Assembly: GCF_013388945.1 (NCBI RefSeq)
Contig: NZ_JACAEH010000002.1
Location: 1-64,000, forward strand
Origin: Nitrososphaera sp.
GTDB taxonomy: Archaea > Thermoproteota > Nitrososphaeria > Nitrososphaerales > Nitrososphaeraceae
Length of the DNA stretch: 64,000 nucleotides
Direction: 5' to 3'
Shown here: piece by piece, positions 33,585 to 52,203 of the stretch
How the letters are laid out: the number at the start of each line of letters is the position of its first letter
How positions within the stretch are numbered: the first letter of the stretch is position 1
Made by a program: the position numbers and the translations under genes
The notes under the pieces: model-generated
Seen by the model: the letters and a program-made list of their open reading frames with translations, nothing else
Told to the model about the DNA's origin: nothing
The model's database searches: none

Positions 33585-33688
33585 GCGGGGGTCGCCAAGC
33601 CCGGTCAACGGCGCAGGGCTTAGAAATGGCAACCGCCACTACAACCCTGTTCCTTAGGGATTCGTGGGTTCAAATCCCACCCCCCGCA
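33585..33688 (+). tRNA. tRNA-Leu (anticodon UAG) with a 19-nt intron
   Basis: The acceptor stem gcgggg-g (33585-33591) pairs perfectly with cccccgc (33681-33687), with discriminator A at 33688. The anticodon stem caggg/ccctg (33614-33618 and 33645-33649) encloses the loop cttaga, interrupted by a 19-base intron (33625-33643) at the usual position between bases 37 and 38. The anticodon is tag at 33621-33623. A long variable arm (tcc/gga) marks a class II leucine tRNA. The T arm is gtggg-ttcaaat-cccac. CCA is not encoded. The 3' end is the attachment site of the integrated element. Confidence 0.9.
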
Positions 33689-33689
33689 C
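33672..33689 (+). repeat. left attachment site (attL)
   Basis: Eighteen bases at the tRNA-Leu 3' end (aaatcccaccccccgcac) recur exactly in the same orientation at 51503-51520. The integrase gene starts 560 bases to the right. This is the usual arrangement for tRNA-targeted tyrosine recombinases. Confidence 0.8.
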
Positions 33690-33733
33690 CCTTTTACTAG
33701 TAACGCTTTATAAGCTCGGGTTCCTAGACCATT

Positions 33734-34261
33734 GTGATGGTGGTCAAGAGCAAACAACTGACCGACCGGTCGATCTACGTCTACCTGCCTACTTTAGAGA
33801 TGGCCAAAGAATGGAAAGGGCTTGCCGAAAAGTCCAAGCTCCCGATTTCGCGTTTCGTAATAGAGCACGTAGAAAACTCGCTAAAGCAAGAGCAAAAGAA
33901 AGCATACGAGTCCCGCGCAGAACTTCTAAAGCAGCTGAAGGAGAAAGACGAGGAGATTGCCAAGCTGAGAAAGCAAATTCGGATGTACGAAATGCTCTCA
34001 GAGAACCAGGAAAAAGAGCTGAAAAAGTACAGGGCAAAGCCCTTCCAGCAAGACAAGTTTGAAGGGGTCAGGGAGTTTGACAAGGACCTCATCCATGTGC
34101 TAAAGAAAGAAGGCACGGTAGACAGCGACAAGATACTAAAGCTGCTTGATGTCGACCCCAAAGACACAGATATCGTCAAGGCTATCAACCGCCAACTTCA
34201 TCTGTTTCAAGCCTACGAACTTGTAGAACCTACCCCTAGGGGCTGGAGATGGGTAGGTTGA
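33734..34261 (+). CDS. coiled-coil DNA-binding regulator coupled to the integrase
   Basis: A 175-residue protein. Residues 10-50 resemble a ribbon-helix-helix domain (DRSIYVYLPTLEMAKEWKGL, then FVIEHVENSL). A charged coiled coil spans about 55-110. The C-terminal 60 residues (DKDLIHVLKKEG to GWRWVG) form a winged-helix-like domain. The GTG at 33734 or ATG at 33737 is about 25 bases after a TATA box (gctttataag). It overlaps the integrase start by 13 bases, so the two are translationally coupled. It may be the recombination directionality factor or a repressor of the integrase. Confidence 0.65.
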   Translation: MMVVKSKQLTDRSIYVYLPTLEMAKEWKGLAEKSKLPISRFVIEHVENSLKQEQKKAYESRAELLKQLKEKDEEIAKLRKQIRMYEMLSENQEKELKKYRAKPFQQDKFEGVREFDKDLIHVLKKEGTVDSDKILKLLDVDPKDTDIVKAINRQLHLFQAYELVEPTPRGWRWVG

Positions 34262-35250
34262 CCGCCGTTGAGCTCAAGCCCGCCGTTGATATCGCCAAAC
34301 TGATGCAAGAGTTCGTAGAGGACTGCAAGGTCCGCCACCTAACAGACGAGACGATAGGCCGGTACAAGTCCCCTCTCAAACTTTTCTTCAAGTTTGTGGC
34401 TGAGAAAGACAAGTCTGTCTATGAAGTCGACAAGTTTGTCCTCAAGGACTTTATCCAGTATCGCAGAGGGCAGGACATCGACCAAAAGACCATCGAGAAC
34501 AACTTTACGGCTTTATCGACCTTCTATGAGTTTTTATGCTTTGAAGGCTACACCTACGCCAACCCTGTCTTGCCTGTCAGAAAGCGCTACTTGAAGCGGT
34601 ACAAGGACGACGATGATGGAGGAGATAACTTTGACGAGTCTGCTAGAAAGCTTGCTACTGTAGAGCAGATGGCCATGCTTGTCAACTCTATTCTGAGCGT
34701 GCGCGACCAGGCTGTTGTGCTGACCCTGGCAAAGACCGGCCTTAGGAGAAGCGAATTAGCGTCAATCGACATAGAGGACGACAATGGCGGGACAGGAAAC
34801 GTCAACTGGGTTGAGCAGAGCATTACGTTGACAAGAAAGAAGTTCAAAAAGAGAAGCGGCAGGACCGTGTTCGTTGACGGCGAGACAGCCCGCGTTTTGA
34901 AGAGGTGGGATGCTCAGCGCAAGAAGCTTTATCCAAAGACAAAGGCGCTTTTTGTCAACGAATACGGCGAGCGCCTTGGCCGAAACGGCATCTACAACCT
35001 TGTAACAAAGTATGCACACGCAGTGGGTCTACATGAGCCCAAGTCAGATAGGATTGAAGACCATTTCAGCGCACACAACTGCCGGCACTGGTTCACCACT
35101 TGGCTTCGCAGAAATGGGATGCCCAGAGAGTTCATCAAGGCGCTGAGGGGAGACAAGCGCAAGGACGCTATCGACATCTATGACCACATCGATAGGGAAG
35201 AGCTGAGGAAGGCATACCTAGCTTTCATACCTCAGCTGGGCCTCGAATAA
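34249..35250 (+). CDS. tyrosine recombinase (integrase)
   Basis: A 333-residue XerD-like site-specific recombinase. Residues 15-105 are the SAM-like core-binding domain. The catalytic domain carries R in TGLRRSEL (about 166), a lysine in TRKKFKK, H276-x2-R279 in AHNCRHWFTTW and the nucleophilic tyrosine Y311 in DIYDHI. The second usual His (LGH) is replaced by Gly-Asp. The gene is intact. It likely catalysed insertion at the tRNA-Leu gene 560 bases away, which is not split because the attachment site is at the tRNA 3' end. Confidence 0.92.
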   Translation: MGRLTAVELKPAVDIAKLMQEFVEDCKVRHLTDETIGRYKSPLKLFFKFVAEKDKSVYEVDKFVLKDFIQYRRGQDIDQKTIENNFTALSTFYEFLCFEGYTYANPVLPVRKRYLKRYKDDDDGGDNFDESARKLATVEQMAMLVNSILSVRDQAVVLTLAKTGLRRSELASIDIEDDNGGTGNVNWVEQSITLTRKKFKKRSGRTVFVDGETARVLKRWDAQRKKLYPKTKALFVNEYGERLGRNGIYNLVTKYAHAVGLHEPKSDRIEDHFSAHNCRHWFTTWLRRNGMPREFIKALRGDKRKDAIDIYDHIDREELRKAYLAFIPQLGLE

Positions 35251-39533: not shown

Positions 39534-40499
39534 CTAGTCTTTGAGAAACTCTTCTGCAAGCTTTTTTCGTATCTCTTTGTCGCTGAGCCCTTGACGCTTT
39601 AGCTGCATTGACCTTTTTCTTAACAGTCTGGCCAGCTTTTGCTCTACAGGCCGGCTGATCCTTTCCGCCTGTTCTGTCTCTCTGAGCTCTTGGAGGAAAC
39701 CTGCAGGTACGTTCTCTTTGAGCTTTTTCTCGACTATTCGGAGTAGCGTCCTTGGTGGGAGCGACTCTACCTCCCATGCCCGGTTGCCGAACTTTTCTAC
39801 ATACCCTTTGGATCTGCTGTCTTTTCTTTTTGTCCTGATGGCAGGCAGCCTGTATCTCTTTACCTGCTGCATGGTAAGCGCAATCCTCTCAATTTCAAGG
39901 CCAAGAGACTCCATTTCATGGCGTGTCACCTCGTCTATCCTCAATCCTGACGGGTCGTGGTCTCCAAGAAGGAGCACCTTTCTTACTCCCCTTTTTCTGG
40001 CTCTTTGGAGTGCCTTTCTGAACATTGTCAGCGAGCCAAAGCCCCTTTGCGCAAGTATTGGAACATGGTACTTGGCTGCAAGCTTTTCCAAGAAATGCTC
40101 CAGGCTTGACTTTTCAACCCACAGCTCTATTTTTGCGTCCGGCATCTCTGGCATCCTTACCTGCCTTGTAGGATCGTCAAACTTTTCTTCAATGTCTGGA
40201 AAAAGTCTTCGAAGTTTCTTGAGCGAGTACCCAAGCCGTTTATAGAATTTCCGGTCATTGGGATACCTGTACAGAGACACCAGCCTGTAAAATAACATCC
40301 TTACTGTTATCGACGAATAGTGGCGCAGCGTGTCCAGAACTCTGAGCCTTAAGAGGAGCACTCCTGCAGTTTTAGATATGCCTGCGACTGACTGTTTTTT
40401 GTGCTCGTCTAGCTTTGGTAATTTTGACAGTATGTCTTTAACGGCAGCCGAATGATGGCCGTCCTCTCTTCCTCGTGCTCTGGGTCTCTTGCTTTTCAA
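39534..40499 (-). CDS. TopoVI-A/Spo11-like protein (Mini-A candidate)
   Basis: A 321-residue protein starting at a TTG whose last two bases overlap the upstream gene's stop (TTGA). Residues about 45-110 form a winged helix with ITVRMLFYRLV, placing a tyrosine (about Y71) where TopoVI-A/Spo11 carries the DNA-cleaving Tyr. The TOPRIM domain (about 120-210) has Glu in ELWVEK and the DxD-like GDHDPSG. A 381-residue frame continues upstream but overlaps the previous gene. No B subunit is encoded nearby, as with the Mini-A proteins described from mobile elements (published family). It may cleave DNA during element replication or integration. Confidence 0.72.
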   Translation of the reverse strand: MKSKRPRARGREDGHHSAAVKDILSKLPKLDEHKKQSVAGISKTAGVLLLRLRVLDTLRHYSSITVRMLFYRLVSLYRYPNDRKFYKRLGYSLKKLRRLFPDIEEKFDDPTRQVRMPEMPDAKIELWVEKSSLEHFLEKLAAKYHVPILAQRGFGSLTMFRKALQRARKRGVRKVLLLGDHDPSGLRIDEVTRHEMESLGLEIERIALTMQQVKRYRLPAIRTKRKDSRSKGYVEKFGNRAWEVESLPPRTLLRIVEKKLKENVPAGFLQELRETEQAERISRPVEQKLARLLRKRSMQLKRQGLSDKEIRKKLAEEFLKD

Positions 40500-40849
40500 T
40501 GGACGATGCCCTCCCCAGCCTGCCTTCTGCGCTTGGACGCCGATACTGTGGGACTGGAATTGGTATCTGTGTAGCGCCTTGTCGTTATTTTCCGCTCGCC
40601 ACGTCGTCTGACTCTGATAGTTCCGTCTTCCAGAATCAGCACTCCAACATGCGAGCCTTTGACAAGCGCACTCTTCCATTTCAAAATCTGTTCTTTAGAA
40701 GTGCGGACAATGAAAGAAGCAACTAGCGTGATAGACTGCTCCTCAACTTTTTCTACCCTGCCGGTGACCTCAGTCCACGGCTCTATTTCGCGGCTTGAAT
40801 TGAAACTGTCTGAATCCGTCGTTTCTGGCTGGATCGAGTCAGTCATCAT
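40496..40849 (-). CDS. small beta-rich partner of the Mini-A-like protein
   Basis: A 117-residue protein starting at ATG 40849 or 40846. The core TEVTGRVEKVEEQSITLVAS and HVGVLILEDGTIRVRRRGER looks like a small beta-barrel (OB or SH3-like), with a basic tail. Its stop overlaps the TTG of the Mini-A gene, so their synthesis is coupled 1:1. A DNA-binding or regulatory subunit is likely. No known family. Confidence 0.6.
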   Translation of the reverse strand: MMTDSIQPETTDSDSFNSSREIEPWTEVTGRVEKVEEQSITLVASFIVRTSKEQILKWKSALVKGSHVGVLILEDGTIRVRRRGERKITTRRYTDTNSSPTVSASKRRRQAGEGIVH

Positions 40850-46122: not shown

Positions 46123-46410
46123 ATGAGCAGTCAATCATCAAACCAGGACACGAGAGGAAACACGCCGCGCTTTCAGGTAATTTTTGTGATCCAAGGCCGA
46201 GAGTTTCCTGTAACTGTGAACGCAAACCAAGCAATACGGGGTGCAGTGCAACAGGCACTACATGATTCGGGGAACCAAGGGTCTGCAGATGGCTGGCAGT
46301 TACGAACTGAAGACGGCCATCTACTTGACTTGCAGCAAAGCTTTGAGAGCCAGGGCATAACATCCACAGTCAAGCTGTTTCTGAGCAAGGGTGCTGGCCG
46401 CGGCGGATGA
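46123..46410 (+). CDS. ubiquitin-like modifier with exposed C-terminal Gly-Gly
   Basis: A 95-residue beta-grasp protein starting MSSQSSNQDTRGNTPRF; start taken at ATG 46123. The core runs FQVIFVIQGREFPVTVNANQ, an alpha helix (GAVQQALHDSG) and SFESQGITSTVKLFLSKG. It ends GAGRGG followed directly by the stop, so no protease is needed to expose Gly-Gly. It overlaps the E2-like gene by four bases (ATGA). It is predicted to be adenylated by the E1 at 47409 and passed to targets. Confidence 0.8.
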   Translation: MSSQSSNQDTRGNTPRFQVIFVIQGREFPVTVNANQAIRGAVQQALHDSGNQGSADGWQLRTEDGHLLDLQQSFESQGITSTVKLFLSKGAGRGG

Positions 46411-46886
46411 AAGTGAGACGACTCCTTGACCCTTTAGTGGCTAGGGTCAAGTATGCAGGAGCCCTTGGTGAGCTTCAATCTGTCGAAGACACATACAAAG
46501 AGATATGGAGAATAAGGCAAGCAGAGTACCCAATAATTCTCATAGATATCATATCAGCTAAGAGCCGAAATCCTTGTCTTACACTGTATCTGGACCTGCG
46601 TAACTATGATTTCGCGCCTCCGAGTGCAACGCTGCTAACGATGGATTTGAGAAAGCGGCTGCTGCCGGAGAACGTGCCGGCGGTAGTTGAAGGTTCCGAG
46701 TCAGCCAAAGGGCATCTTGCGGGCACTCCGCAGACTGGGCTTTGGTTCTGCAGCCCTGGTTTTTACGAGTACCATGATTTTTACTATCCGATGGACAGGT
46801 GGGAATTGATAAGGGGAACAGATATGGGGCAGCTGACTTGGATTGTAAATCAAGCTTGCAATCTTGTCGATCGCCAGAAGATTTAG
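46407..46886 (+). CDS. E2-like conjugating protein
   Basis: A 159-residue protein. LTLYLDLRNYDFAPPSATLL parallels the E2 strand with the YP/PP loop. The segment GLWFCSPGFYEYHDFYYPMD has C115 as the candidate catalytic cysteine with a nearby histidine, and is followed by W and a C-terminal helix (QLTWIVNQACNL). The protein is small and divergent. A related metal-binding family in such operons (CEHH type, as I recall) is an alternative. It sits between Ubl and JAMM genes. Confidence 0.65.
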   Translation: MKVRRLLDPLVARVKYAGALGELQSVEDTYKEIWRIRQAEYPIILIDIISAKSRNPCLTLYLDLRNYDFAPPSATLLTMDLRKRLLPENVPAVVEGSESAKGHLAGTPQTGLWFCSPGFYEYHDFYYPMDRWELIRGTDMGQLTWIVNQACNLVDRQKI

Positions 46887-46899
46887 GGAGTCGAGCATT

Positions 46900-47370
46900 T
46901 TGAGTATTCAGACTATCGAAATAACACGATCGATTCTCTCCAAGACGTTTAATTTTTTGAGAATGCACGGTAAACAGGGTAATGAATCGCATGCTTTGTG
47001 GGTTGGAGACACAGGTGAGGGTGTCTTGAAAGTAAGCGATGTATGGTTTCCACAACAGTACAACTCGCCTATCGAGTATGTTGTGCCTGAAGAAGAAATC
47101 CATCGTCTGAACGTAAAGTTGAACCAATCTGGACTAGCCGCGCTCGCCCAGATTCATACACACCCCGGAGAGGCATTTCACAGCTCAGTTGACAATGATG
47201 GCTCTGCACTTCTAGTCCTTCCCGGAGCGCTTAGCATAGTCATACCAGACTATGGCTTCGTTAAGGAGGACGACCCCGGAATATGGGCGCTATACCAGTA
47301 TGACGGGCGCAGATGGAAAGAAACCTCTGACGACAAGGAGGCGAAGAGGAGATTATTCAGAATAATCTAG
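46900..47370 (+). CDS. JAMM/JAB deconjugating metalloprotease
   Basis: A 156-residue protein starting at TTG 46900 (MSIQTIEITRS), preceded by agggag. The zinc site is Glu near NESHALWVG and H86-T-H88-P in LAQIHTHPGEAFHSSVDND, with a serine and aspartate after it, as in Rpn11-type proteases. It would remove the Ubl from targets. The open frame continues to 46864 but that overlaps the E2-like gene. Confidence 0.85.
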   Translation: MSIQTIEITRSILSKTFNFLRMHGKQGNESHALWVGDTGEGVLKVSDVWFPQQYNSPIEYVVPEEEIHRLNVKLNQSGLAALAQIHTHPGEAFHSSVDNDGSALLVLPGALSIVIPDYGFVKEDDPGIWALYQYDGRRWKETSDDKEAKRRLFRII

Positions 47371-47408
47371 GATTCAATATTGATCCTGCATCGGCTAAGA
47401 ACATCGAA

Positions 47409-48902
47409 GTGATGTCAGCCGTATCCAGCATTGAAAAAGTGGGAGACTTGAGGAGAATCGCAGACTCTTTTAGAGTAGATGTGGTGTTTCAGGACGGTTC
47501 AAAAAATGACCCGAATATGGTCATGTCCTGCTTCATTGCACTGAACCTGCTCCCCCGATTTCTAAAAATGGTTCGTTACAAGGGCGACACGGGCATACTA
47601 GGTAACTTCCCACCGTCTCATACCGCGAAAATCAATCTAGGCAACGATGATAGCGGCTGGAAACCACACGTTACTCTAGTTTTTGGAAAGGATCCAGTTG
47701 TTGCTCAGAACCGCGTAATTTACGTCGGCTCTGCAGGCTGGAGCATTTGCCTGTCTACAAAAAAGCCCTGTGGCTGGGATTCCGCAGCCAACGTTAATCG
47801 TATTGCGGCAATGTATGCAGGAACTCTTGCGGTAGGCGAAGTCTTCAAGATGCTTTTGTCTTCTCTGAATGTGAAATCAGAGTTGGTCGACACACTGGAG
47901 TACGACCTAGTCACACACGGAACGACAAAGAACCACCCAGTCATCGAACCTAAGATACCCTCCATTATGCATTTAGAAGATCTCACTATCGTGGGCTGCG
48001 GAGCAATCGGACAAGCTTTGATAGTGGCACTTGCGAATTCAACGTATCTTTCTGGCCACATAACACTGGTGGATCAGGACAAGTTAGAGCCCTCGAATGA
48101 ACAGCGCTACATCCTCGGGTACGAGGAAAAGAGAGGCCAGATGAAAGTGAACGTTGCACAGGGAGTTCTTAGTGAGAACAATAACTTGCTGTCTGTGACC
48201 GTATTACCTATGAAGTATGAAGACGCCATGTCTGCTTTCGAGTATTCGCCCCTAGGTTCTGAGATAGTCGCGTCAGTCGATAACGAGAGGACTAGAATCA
48301 ACATTCAAGCAGCCATCCCAAGACTGCTATGGAATGTATGGACCGATGTCTCCGAGGGAAGTGTGAGGTACGGAGTAGGCCGACACGTTCTCGATACCGA
48401 TCTCGAATGTGCTGCGTGCTCATATTTTCCAAAGGAGAAAGCCCCTTCCTCACAGCTTGCGATGAATGCGATTCGGACCGGGATTCCAGAAGCGGAACTG
48501 CAAGACAGGATTGCAAAAGGAGATGTATGCAAGCCAGAGGATGTGGAAAGAATCGCAAAAACTCATAATCTTGTCGTCGATGGGTTGCGTGGACTTGTAG
48601 GCATGCGCCTGAAAGAGGTCCTGCACGGAGAATGCGGTGTATTCAGCATAAGAATGCCTGAAAAGCATGAAACTACTCCTGCACCACACGCGCCAGTGAT
48701 GGCAGGTACCATACTGGCCTCCCAGATAATCCTGTCTCGCTTGCCGTTACCTGAAGGCGCAAGACTGGTAGAATCAGTCGCAGAATTTGAGTCATTTTCT
48801 ATTCCTAGTTCCAACTGCTTGATGAGGAAGAGAAAAAATACGTCGTGTTTCTGTAACGACCCCGTATATGTCGAAGCGTATCGTATAAAGTGGAAGAAAT
48901 AG
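47409..48902 (+). CDS. E1-like ubiquitin-activating (ThiF-fold) enzyme
   Basis: A 497-residue protein starting at GTG 47409 or ATG 47412. Residues 1-185 form a divergent domain (VIYVGSAGWSICL, RIAAMYAGTLAVGEVFK). The adenylation domain (about 190-450) has DLTIVGCGAIGQAL, Asp in LVDQDKLEPSNEQRYILG, K246 (QMKVNVA) and Asp in VASVDNERTR. Cys pairs C334/C337 (ECAACSY) and C480/C482 may bind zinc. It should adenylate the Ubl C terminus; C374 or C409 could carry the thioester. It closes the operon. Confidence 0.88.
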   Translation: MMSAVSSIEKVGDLRRIADSFRVDVVFQDGSKNDPNMVMSCFIALNLLPRFLKMVRYKGDTGILGNFPPSHTAKINLGNDDSGWKPHVTLVFGKDPVVAQNRVIYVGSAGWSICLSTKKPCGWDSAANVNRIAAMYAGTLAVGEVFKMLLSSLNVKSELVDTLEYDLVTHGTTKNHPVIEPKIPSIMHLEDLTIVGCGAIGQALIVALANSTYLSGHITLVDQDKLEPSNEQRYILGYEEKRGQMKVNVAQGVLSENNNLLSVTVLPMKYEDAMSAFEYSPLGSEIVASVDNERTRINIQAAIPRLLWNVWTDVSEGSVRYGVGRHVLDTDLECAACSYFPKEKAPSSQLAMNAIRTGIPEAELQDRIAKGDVCKPEDVERIAKTHNLVVDGLRGLVGMRLKEVLHGECGVFSIRMPEKHETTPAPHAPVMAGTILASQIILSRLPLPEGARLVESVAEFESFSIPSSNCLMRKRKNTSCFCNDPVYVEAYRIKWKK

Positions 48903-48973: not shown

Positions 48974-50011
48974 TTGAATACGGATCAGTTTTTCGAAGAA
49001 TTCATAAAGGCTTACAAGTTGATATGCAAGCAATTCGGCTTAGAGAGTCTCCTGCATGAAGTAAGAAGACTGGAGACAAAGCATGTAGGTCTAGACTACA
49101 TATCATACGCCCAATCCCAAGATTGTTCCATTAACTTTAGTGTTAGAAGCAACAGTGATGATTCAGATATTATTGGAGACAGTGTGACAGTTTCACTAGA
49201 GATAGAAACTCCTAAGCTCTTCCGCTCAAAGCATTTGCAGGCGGAACTAACCAGATCGAAATTCAAGAAGGGATTTCTGCAAAGGTGGAGCCTCACCAGG
49301 ATCAGACAATTCGGGCGATGGCTCGAGGCAGAACCTATTGATGTCATTTTCCACGACATGGATGTACGGGTGTACGGTCTTCCAGGAAGTACAAGACCAA
49401 CGGTTGCAGAGTTTGTTACAGTCATTGCAGGTCTCGAAAAGCGACAGCAACCGAGGAAGCTGCTTGTTTACAGATTTCACCACCATGAAAAGTACAGTGA
49501 AGCGGAATTTTTTAGCTATGCTCTTTGGATATGCGTTACCGATTACGATTTCTGGATTGTCTTTCCTAATGCCGCCGGGCTGAGCGGAGGTGAGAACTTT
49601 AGGGATTATTGTTTCATTGAAGAGTTGTTGGAAAACGCCAGCAGGAAGCTTAAGCCTGATATCCGCGATCTGGACGTGGATTATGAAGACTTGGAAGGAT
49701 ATTTGCTGCAACATGCAGTAACATTTGGAAGTAGGGAAAGCGAAGTCAACCGGCTCAAGGCAATACTAAAGATAATCTCAGAGGGAATCTACTTTGTCCT
49801 ACTTATCGAGGGAGATGATGATGAGGCAGCTGCATACATGCTATTTTCCTTCAGCTTGGTATATGCCATACTTATCGGAATCCCGATCGCAATCGTGAGT
49901 CTGTTCTATGCATACTGGATAGAATCCAAGGTTCAATCTCAACTATCTGACTACCTTTATTCCGACTTGGGAATTCCTTACGGCAGCCTAGGCGATCTCA
50001 AGCTGCTGTGA
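48974..50011 (+). CDS. membrane-anchored protein of unknown function
   Basis: A 345-residue protein starting at a TTG (48974) about 25 bases after a TATA-like gtttatcatatag. Residues 1-270 form a soluble alpha-beta domain (DVIFHDMDVRVYGLPGS, LWICVTDYDFWIVFPN). One to two membrane segments lie near 290-320 (AYMLFSFSLVYAILIGIPIAIVSLFYAYW cut to its first residues AYMLFSFSL). It follows the E1 gene closely and may be the effector or sensor of the module; no family is recognised. Confidence 0.55.
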   Translation: MNTDQFFEEFIKAYKLICKQFGLESLLHEVRRLETKHVGLDYISYAQSQDCSINFSVRSNSDDSDIIGDSVTVSLEIETPKLFRSKHLQAELTRSKFKKGFLQRWSLTRIRQFGRWLEAEPIDVIFHDMDVRVYGLPGSTRPTVAEFVTVIAGLEKRQQPRKLLVYRFHHHEKYSEAEFFSYALWICVTDYDFWIVFPNAAGLSGGENFRDYCFIEELLENASRKLKPDIRDLDVDYEDLEGYLLQHAVTFGSRESEVNRLKAILKIISEGIYFVLLIEGDDDEAAAYMLFSFSLVYAILIGIPIAIVSLFYAYWIESKVQSQLSDYLYSDLGIPYGSLGDLKLL

Positions 50012-50102: not shown

Positions 50103-51281
50103 TTGAGTGGAAAAAACTCTGAGGAAGAACGCATCGTTAAGCTCTTTCACACAGCCATCTCTGAACCTGATGACAGGCAAGGGTTTGAAAGTATTAAGGA
50201 AATAACTACTCTTGTAGAACGTTCTAAGAAATATTCTGACCTTATTTTGCGACCTGACTTGGTCGATGCTTATTATATATTCAAACGGGAAAACATCGCC
50301 GTTAAAGCTTCTGTTGCGGAGGTAGAAAAGTTCCTGAAGGATAGTCTATTCAAGACAGCAGACTATGACTTTTACTTTCCCATCTACAGGGCGAAGAGAT
50401 ATCCCGATGGTTACAAGATTGGAAATTGTGTCGCACTGGCGTTTGAAAAGCTTCCTCAAAAGGTTCAAGAAATATTCCTGAAGGATTGGGATTCAGAATA
50501 CACACTTCAAGGAAGTGGTATGAGTAAAGAGCACTTCATAGTGTTGCACAAAGAATCCCTTTTCCTAAGCTGCAATTTGAAAGCAAATGGTCAGGGTGGT
50601 GCAACGACTAAGGCAAGAATGCAATGCGAACAAGCACTAGATCTCTTGAGAATCGTCCATGGCACATCATTTAAGATCAATGACTTTTGCTTCGTGGTAG
50701 ACAAGAGTTCAGAGGTCTTTCATCGTCTTCCGATTATGGAATTGCTCGAAGAAAAGGCAAGTGTACTATATTCCTCAGGTAGTGACTCTTTCATTTGCAC
50801 ACTGAACGATATTATGATTGCTCAAAGCCCGACGGAGTTGGAGCAAAAAATAAAAAATGCTGTCCATTTATTTGCAGTCGCTACTTCTGTTTCGTATCCG
50901 GAGGTAAAATTTGTCATTTTGTGCTCAGCCATGGAAGCAATGTTGCTTTCTAGTGGTGACAAAGACTATTTGGGATGGAAGCTTGCTGAGAGAGCAGCAT
51001 TTTTGCTAGAACCAAAAGCAAAACGGGAGAGCACTGCAAAAGAGGTTGCAGACTTGTATAATATGAGATCCAGATTCGTGCATCAGGATGCAAAAGATGA
51101 ACCTATAACAAGTGCAGATTATAGCTCGATTGAGAATGTCATGCTAAATGTTCTTCTTCGCCTAATTGAAATGAGAAAAAGAGGATATACACGAGTTTCA
51201 AAGTGCAAGAATGCGCAATTATCCATAGCAGACTACGTAGATATGGTAAAATATTCAGGAGTGGGCGATATAATTCTGTAG
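50103..51281 (+). CDS. ApeA-like HEPN protein
   Basis: A 392-residue protein. Residues 30-250 are beta-rich and resemble ApeA N-terminal domains; residues 265-365 form an ApeA-like HEPN (FVILCSAMEAMLL...LYNMRSRFVHQDAKD) with the RNase motif R322-x4-H327. HEPN RNases of this type cause abortive anti-phage defence. It starts at a TTG and is the last gene before the right end of the element. Confidence 0.75.
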   Translation: MSGKNSEEERIVKLFHTAISEPDDRQGFESIKEITTLVERSKKYSDLILRPDLVDAYYIFKRENIAVKASVAEVEKFLKDSLFKTADYDFYFPIYRAKRYPDGYKIGNCVALAFEKLPQKVQEIFLKDWDSEYTLQGSGMSKEHFIVLHKESLFLSCNLKANGQGGATTKARMQCEQALDLLRIVHGTSFKINDFCFVVDKSSEVFHRLPIMELLEEKASVLYSSGSDSFICTLNDIMIAQSPTELEQKIKNAVHLFAVATSVSYPEVKFVILCSAMEAMLLSSGDKDYLGWKLAERAAFLLEPKAKRESTAKEVADLYNMRSRFVHQDAKDEPITSADYSSIENVMLNVLLRLIEMRKRGYTRVSKCKNAQLSIADYVDMVKYSGVGDIIL

Positions 51282-51402: not shown

Positions 51403-51449
51403 TAGGCCGTCTAATCACAATTGGAACCCTCTTACTAGAACTAAGGTTA

Positions 51450-51480
51450 TGGCGGGCCCGTCGGGATTCGAACCCCCTCG
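51450..51480 (-). pseudogene. tRNA 3'-end fragment
   Basis: On the minus strand, ggttcgaatcccga-cgggcccg-cca resembles a T-loop, acceptor strand and CCA. No 5' half (gggcccg) is found upstream, and one side of the T stem is damaged, so it is a remnant, perhaps carried by another integration. Confidence 0.5.
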
Positions 51481-51482
51481 AG

Positions 51483-51511
51483 TTACCGGTAAAAACAAGC
51501 GTAAATCCCAC
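51483..51511 (+). repeat. right-end direct repeat, copy 1 (overlaps attR)
   Basis: A 29-base unit starting ttaccggtaaaaacaagcgt and ending in aaatcccac. It matches 51572-51600 at 27 of 29 positions. Integrase arm sites or leftovers of repeated integration are possible. Confidence 0.6.
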
Positions 51512-51520
51512 CCCCCGCAC
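51503..51520 (+). repeat. right attachment site (attR)
   Basis: Exact 18-bp copy (aaatcccaccccccgcac) of the tRNA-Leu 3' end at 33672-33689, in the same orientation. It marks the right end of the element. Confidence 0.8.
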
Positions 51521-51571
51521 TTTTTCAACTATCTCATGTACTGTTGACAGAAATTTGACCCCCGCTCGTTA

Positions 51572-51600
51572 TTACCGGTAAAAGCAAGCGCAAATCCCAC
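51572..51600 (+). repeat. right-end direct repeat, copy 2
   Basis: Second copy of the 29-base unit, starting ttaccggtaaaagcaagcgc. Its last nine bases (aaatcccac) equal the start of the att core, but the tRNA-like part then stops. Confidence 0.6.
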
Positions 51601-51690
51601 ATGTAACGAGGCGTTACGAGTTCGACATCTTGCCTCGCGTTACAGTGCATACGCCCTGTTTATTACTAAATTGCGATCGTTAATTCTCGA

Positions 51691-52203
51691 ATGCCTCCAA
51701 GGAATGTCAGAACCATAAGGGACCTGATATACTGGGAGTACGCTAAACTGATAGCGGGCAGTGCCGTAGGCGATAGGAAGAATTACGGCTTCATAATGCA
51801 TACCTACAATAATTTAAAAACCAAGAAACTTCCTCCTTCCACAATCCTGCGAGAAAACCAAAAGCTGGTCAAAGAAGCTTCTAACATTTGTTCCTACTGT
51901 GGATTTAATCAGGACCTTCAATGGGAACATATCATCCCCAAATCGCGCGGTGGACCCGATACCATAGACAACATGGTTCTCAGCTGCAAGAAATGTAACT
52001 TGTCGAAGGGTGATAGAGATCCGTTTGAATGGTACGGCAAGGAAAGAAGGTACGAGGTACCAAGGTTGGTGCTAGGAAAATACCTGAAGCTTGCCTACGA
52101 GGCTCATGAAAAGTCTGGTACTCTTGATTCGCAGGACCTTAATGCAGACGAGACCCTGGATGTGTTTGATTTGGGGGTCGTCTTCAAGAAAGCTACCCCA
52201 TGA
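51691..52203 (+). CDS. HNH endonuclease
   Basis: A 170-residue protein with a zinc-bound HNH domain: CSYCGFNQDLQWEHIIPKSR, then NMVLSCKKCNLSKGD. The C-x2-C pairs bind structural zinc, and H and N residues are the catalytic core. It is leaderless from a TATA at about 51655-51666. It lies outside attR but inside a further tRNA-like remnant, so it may belong to an older element. Confidence 0.85.
   Translation: MPPRNVRTIRDLIYWEYAKLIAGSAVGDRKNYGFIMHTYNNLKTKKLPPSTILRENQKLVKEASNICSYCGFNQDLQWEHIIPKSRGGPDTIDNMVLSCKKCNLSKGDRDPFEWYGKERRYEVPRLVLGKYLKLAYEAHEKSGTLDSQDLNADETLDVFDLGVVFKKATP

Follow-up and report, generated by a model that had tools for sequence, protein, structure and literature searches.

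A predicted BilABCD operon on a tRNA-integrated element of an ammonia-oxidising archaeon

The locus and its setting

The stretch of DNA we analysed, which we call the window, is 64,000 nucleotides long and comes from a Nitrososphaera sp. contig (NZ_JACAEH010000002.1). The host genome is 99% complete, belongs to the order Nitrososphaerales and encodes archaeal AmoA, the mark of an ammonia-oxidising archaeon. Toward the end of the window lie four genes for the parts of a ubiquitin-like conjugation pathway:

46123..46410, + strand: BilA-like ubiquitin-like modifier (Ubl), 95 aa, one beta-grasp domain, mature C-terminus ...AGRGG
46407..46886, + strand: BilB-like E2, 159 aa, Cys115 in WFCSPGFYEYH
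46900..47370, + strand: BilC-like JAMM/MPN+ isopeptidase, 156 aa, TTG start; E29, H86xH88, S95, D98
47412..48902, + strand: BilD-like E1, 496 aa; GxGxxG at 195-200, D221, R232, K245, Cys408

The original prediction was of a four-gene operon, Ubl-E2-JAMM-E1, at 46123-48902, and the open reading frames are indeed there, all on the forward strand. The four frames are open and closely packed (the E2 start overlaps the Ubl stop by 4 nt) and are collinear with BilABCD. No ORF for a RING protein occurs within the operon, judged by the ORF list and Pfam. A TTTTTATCC box about 40 nt 5' of bilA could, by eye, be an archaeal TATA box. Scans for sigma-70 promoters and terminators found no excess over shuffled sequences.

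The operon lies between two repeats, together with an integrase and two further ORFs:

33585..33688, + strand: integration-site tRNA gene (Rfam RF00005, 43 bits; missed by ARAGORN)
33672..33694, + strand: attL-like direct repeat at the tRNA 3' end, 18-nt core AAATCCCACCCCCCGCAC
34249..35250, + strand: tyrosine integrase of the element (Phage_integrase, 5.8e-21; phrog_1, 5.3e-36)
48974..50011, + strand: ORF with a C-terminal transmembrane segment (our own reading), TTG start, no family match
50103..51281, + strand: candidate ORF with a HEPN-like RSRFVH (R-x4-H) motif, no Pfam or PDB match
51503..51525, + strand: attR-like direct repeat, 18-nt core identical to the attL-like copy

The tRNA is, on our reading, a tRNA-Leu(UAG) with an intron in its anticodon loop. 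The integrase gene sits just inside the left, tRNA-side repeat, and the operon falls in a low-GC stretch (42-51% versus about 57% outside). In genomes of the same genus the left landmark (the tRNA and the gene upstream of it) and the right one (pdxT, downstream) are conserved, 2.7, 5.3 or 9.8 kb apart, and the DNA between them is unrelated. This marks the site as a hotspot of integration, occupied here by a 17.8-kb element that carries the Bil operon as cargo. None of the same-genus genomes examined showed an exact empty site, the tRNA-pdxT stretch differing in each. The archaeal host and mobile setting proposed at the outset are borne out by the AmoA gene, the integrase and the att-like repeats at a tRNA.

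The same proposal had a HEPN protein next door, and here only a part survives. The R-x4-H motif is present, but the protein has no Pfam or PDB match and the ORF at 48974-50011 intervenes before the operon. The two nearest archaeal operons have no counterpart of either flanking ORF beside them, so a link between the HEPN-like gene and the operon is unsupported. We considered both ORFs as effectors and rejected them, finding no match near other archaeal Bil operons. The HEPN-like ORF is element cargo, as is its transmembrane neighbour, which has no evident part in the Bil system.

Other features were noted along the way. The element gene at 39534-40679 on the reverse strand has no Pfam match, but its product matches a PHROG topoisomerase family (phrog_6247, 8.6e-35) and could be one that serves in the element's replication. 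The surroundings of the right att repeat (51438-51610) hold a second fragment, on the reverse strand, resembling a tRNA 3' end, and also a repeated TACCGGTAAAARCAAGCGYAAATCCCAC motif, a possible remnant of another integration. Just beyond the right att repeat, at 51691-52203 on the forward strand, is an HNH protein locally like the HNH of Cas9d/IscB (NCBIfam 1.4e-17, below the family cut-off).

Four proteins, one family

Profile and structure searches gave a consistent answer for every gene. The PADLOC models for BilB, BilC and BilD match their counterparts here, and the best PDB sequence matches of the four proteins are BilA to BilD. The modifier belongs to Pfam DUF2604 (2.4e-16) and is nearest to BilA (8tyx_A, E 8.4e-10). 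Its AlphaFold model is a beta-grasp (pLDDT 82), for which Foldseek again returns 8tyx_A as best match (3.9e-8). The protein ends ...GAGRGG*, so the beta-grasp modifier with a Gly-Gly terminus that had been described stands as described. Several bacterial Ubl forms end with one extra residue, whereas this one terminates directly in Gly-Gly, and processing by BilC would therefore be unnecessary for its maturation.

The isopeptidase has a weak Pfam match (Prok-JAB, 0.007) alongside strong ones to PADLOC BilC (5.2e-12) and to the BilC chain 8tyx_B (E 5.6e-21). Its ligands Glu29, His86, His88, Ser95 and Asp98 are invariant across 11 aligned homologues, as expected of a BilC and of the JAMM metalloprotease first proposed. 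The E1 matches Pfam ThiF (1.4e-15), PADLOC BilD (2.1e-14) and, in the PDB, BilD 8tyz_A (E 4.1e-28); other solved proteins trail far behind (MccB at 5.5e-6 and MoeB at 0.0045, against 4e-28 for BilD). Here too the claim of adenylation motifs and Cys pairs was sound, with GxGxxG, Asp221, Arg232 and Lys245 kept. The zinc cysteines Cys333/336/479/481 are present, the Cys pairs invariant in the alignments, and Cys408 aligns with the catalytic Cys417 of BilD. The adenylation site, catalytic cysteine and zinc pairs of a BilABCD-type E1 are thus complete.

It is the E2 that gives pause. Its family is clear enough: Pfam Metal_CEHH (5.8e-11), PADLOC BilB (2.5e-6), BilB 8tyz_C as best PDB sequence match (E 5e-5), and an AlphaFold model with an E2 fold (pLDDT 84) whose best Foldseek match is BilB 8tz0_C (7e-9, TM 0.76-0.83). 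The predicted folds of Ubl and E2 match BilA and BilB best, so the reading of the operon could not be refuted on the ground that its 95- and 159-residue proteins lack a beta-grasp and an E2 fold. Cys115 is invariant in the family comparison, and Glu121 and His123 are kept. The earlier description, a divergent E2-like protein with a candidate catalytic cysteine, was right in this, but overlooked the loss of the second His of the CEHH motif (DFYYPMDRW). The window loop reads EYHDFYYPMDRW, compared with EYHHHYPEDRW in Nitrosopumilus sp. PfA, EYHQHYKLDRW in genome G598 and PAHSGD-type loops in bacteria. Among the examined relatives with a readable motif, only the window E2 has lost this His; the others have a loop His. 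We took a complete CEHH motif to be typical of BilABCD rather than strictly required, the form of the loop varying among relatives. The second His is described as catalytic in BilB (PMC11354881), and its loss means that the window E2 may work slowly, work differently or not work at all. Of the doubts about the mechanism we propose, this loss weighs most.

Relatives in archaea and bacteria

Homologues of the E1 are present in 8 of 400 genomes of the order, or about 2%, the window genome included (protein search, E <= 1e-12). The full A-B-C-D order also occurs in Nitrosopumilus sp. PfA, which shares an order with our host (48% E1 identity), and in G598 (40%). Five others (G530, G419, G606, G629 and G450) have divergent or partial Bil operons, some at contig ends. 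In a survey of the phylum with PF14455 the window genome alone rose above the family cut-off, the E1 protein search being more sensitive. One locus from that survey (L005) was rejected, being below the cut-off and without Bil neighbours.

The same gene order is found in dozens of bacteria. Bacterial operons are plentiful in Rhizobiales, with scattered cases in Bacteroidota, Actinomycetota, Gemmatimonadota and Bacillota, and many are plasmid-borne. A tree of the E1 groups the window, PfA and G598 as a clade (100/100), while a single branch divides archaeal from bacterial rows (94/97). The archaeal branches are very long, which leaves the deeper order unsure. The tree argues against recent transfer from Rhizobiales.

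Neighbourhoods differ among the archaeal operons. The G598 operon is chromosomal and lies between an MvaI/BcnI-type restriction enzyme with its methylase and a type I HsdRSM locus; this is a defence island. Up to about 14 kb from the PfA locus are genes for a DNA adenine methylase and a NucS-like nuclease, and the G530 operon adjoins an integrase. No relatives of the E1 were found in viral contigs, in two scans, or in phage records, which suggests that the Bil operon is not typical virus cargo.

Some of the relatives have oddities of their own. In G530 (contig C2; L021:8246-11845) a gene for a proteasome-fold peptidase (PF00227, E 1.1e-5) sits between Ubl and E2, all co-directional. Of 349 genomes of the order no other was found to have the peptidase, and the G530 genome is only 48% complete; its operon is possibly a conjugation cassette carrying its own protease. 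A plasmid of Natrinema zhouii has a divergent four-gene Bil-like operon (L008:4336-7098), and plasmids of Haloferacaceae XH8 and Halomarina PSR21 have a divergent Bil-like operon too. In Natrinema the E1 is without the catalytic Cys domain and the Ubl terminates in GKGASE; conjugation may therefore differ there. In PfA the E2 frame (L006:15109-15283) runs from the stop of the Ubl to its conserved ILDERV beginning with no ATG, GTG or TTG on the way, which would point to a non-standard start, coupling or a sequence error.

Comparison with known systems

The nearest well-described system is bacterial, ISG15-like BilABCD, as in Collimonas and in PDB 8tyx/8tyy/8tyz/8tz0, which shares with the window gene order, homologous folds, the E1 catalytic and zinc cysteines, the E2 cysteine, the JAMM ligands and the absence of an E3. 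The window operon differs in its archaeal host and mobile element, in its identity of about 20-33%, in the missing E2 His, and in a Ubl that needs no trimming to end in Gly-Gly. This Ubl has a single domain, as do the 8tyx and NGR234 forms and unlike the two-domain BilA. The pNGR234a operon, type of class 6c in Iyer et al. 2006 (DUF2604, metal-binding protein, JAB, E1), is collinear with and homologous to ours; in the table of that paper the class is confined to alpha-proteobacteria. Judged by sequence and modelled fold, then, the window operon is a BilABCD homologue, a known Bil system of operon class 6c. What had been put forward as a resemblance to bacterial anti-phage Ubl systems is a matter of homology and not of analogy.

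Other conjugation systems are further away. The Caldiarchaeum ubiquitin-E1-E2-RING-Rpn11 cluster is also archaeal and has a Ubl of similar fold (6fno_D, rank 3), but the window E1 and JAMM are much nearer to Bil, its E2 is of the Metal_CEHH type rather than eukaryote-like, and no RING E3 was found in the operon. CBASS type II Cap2/Cap3 and the 6A-MBL E1-E2 fusions have ThiF domains similar to our E1. The window operon, unlike those systems, encodes its E1 and E2 separately and brings a Ubl of its own. It has no metallo-beta-lactamase partner, and the neighbours that we scanned include no CD-NTase.

What the operon may do

We think it probable that this is a BilABCD conjugation system, carried by a tRNA-integrated element of an ammonia-oxidising archaeon, which tags virion proteins of archaeal viruses. 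Enzymatic activity, antiviral role and target are all inferred from homology to Bil, whose biochemistry (PMC11354881) underlies each proposed step. BilD would adenylate the exposed Gly-Gly of BilA and load it onto Cys408; BilA would pass to Cys115 of BilB, which would attach it to target lysines without an E3; and BilC would take BilA off again and police mis-conjugation. Homology with Collimonas Bil points to viral structural proteins as the substrates, and their tagging during infection would leave the progeny poorly infectious. The element would gain by protecting its host and excluding rival viruses. Bacterial Bil stops phage by tagging the central tail fibre (Hor et al. 2024, as described in PMC11364771 and PMC12948488). 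The antiviral reading draws on these bacterial systems, on the mobile setting and on the G598 relative in its defence island. No viral contig or phage record gave a matching hint of a target. With its E1 only about 25% identical to characterised bacterial Bil, the archaeal system may differ in its substrates.

The absent E2 His invites another reading, namely that the Bil system has degenerated or diverged, the operon being inactive or its E1 passing BilA straight to targets as in E2-less SAMP systems. The window E2 stands alone in this loss among relatives with a readable motif, and its codons suggest that a single transition would suffice to turn His into Tyr. Still, four open, packed frames with every other catalytic residue of the four proteins intact do not look like decay, and in the shortened loop shared by the archaeal trio another residue may take the role of the His. 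We regard this reading as unlikely.

Nor does a role in regulation or housekeeping, through SAMP- or Urm1-like tagging for turnover by the proteasome or through sulfur transfer, sit well with the evidence, and we hold it to be quite improbable. SAMP and Urm1 conjugation does serve turnover in archaea (PMC4895103, PMC4569737), and the window Ubl has the Gly-Gly end. But among solved proteins the Bil chains are by far the best matches of the E1 and JAMM, no sulfurtransferase genes were found among the scanned neighbours, and a patchy gene set on a mobile element is unlike housekeeping genes. Since the operon travels on an integrated element, and many bacterial relatives ride on plasmids, one might instead picture an offensive or anti-defence tool, tagging proteins of the host or of rival elements for the element's own gain in plasmid or virus competition. 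Against this are the chromosomal G598 relative amid restriction-modification genes and the demonstrably antiviral bacterial Bil; we consider an offensive role decidedly unlikely. The original call of a new archaeal defence module thus divides in two: a defence role is likely, but the module is not new, being the known Bil, whose bacterial members are experimentally antiviral.

Significance

The kind of system was known already, as class 6c (Iyer 2006) and later as Bil. Its occurrence in archaea may be new, as none of the papers open to our search reports it. A survey of 7747 archaeal genomes names neither Bil nor ubiquitin in its main text (PMC12988326).

A complete Bil kit in an archaeal mobile element suggests that eukaryote-like antiviral tagging also acts on archaeal viruses. 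More tentatively, and with considerable doubt, archaea may hold old Bil-type branches of their own: an E2 lacking its second catalytic His, haloarchaeal E1s devoid of a Cys domain and an operon that includes a dedicated proteasome-like peptidase. If so, archaea would have a tag-and-destroy antiviral route independent of eukaryotic ubiquitin. Eukaryotic ubiquitin signalling is thought to descend from archaeal and bacterial precursors, and an element-borne Bil would place such genes physically within reach of archaeal lineages. The defence repertoire of Nitrososphaerales is little known, and Bil would add to it a system that can be tested. If ammonia-oxidising archaea have a bona fide antiviral operon of E1, E2, DUB and Ubl, ISG15-like immunity would gain a third setting.
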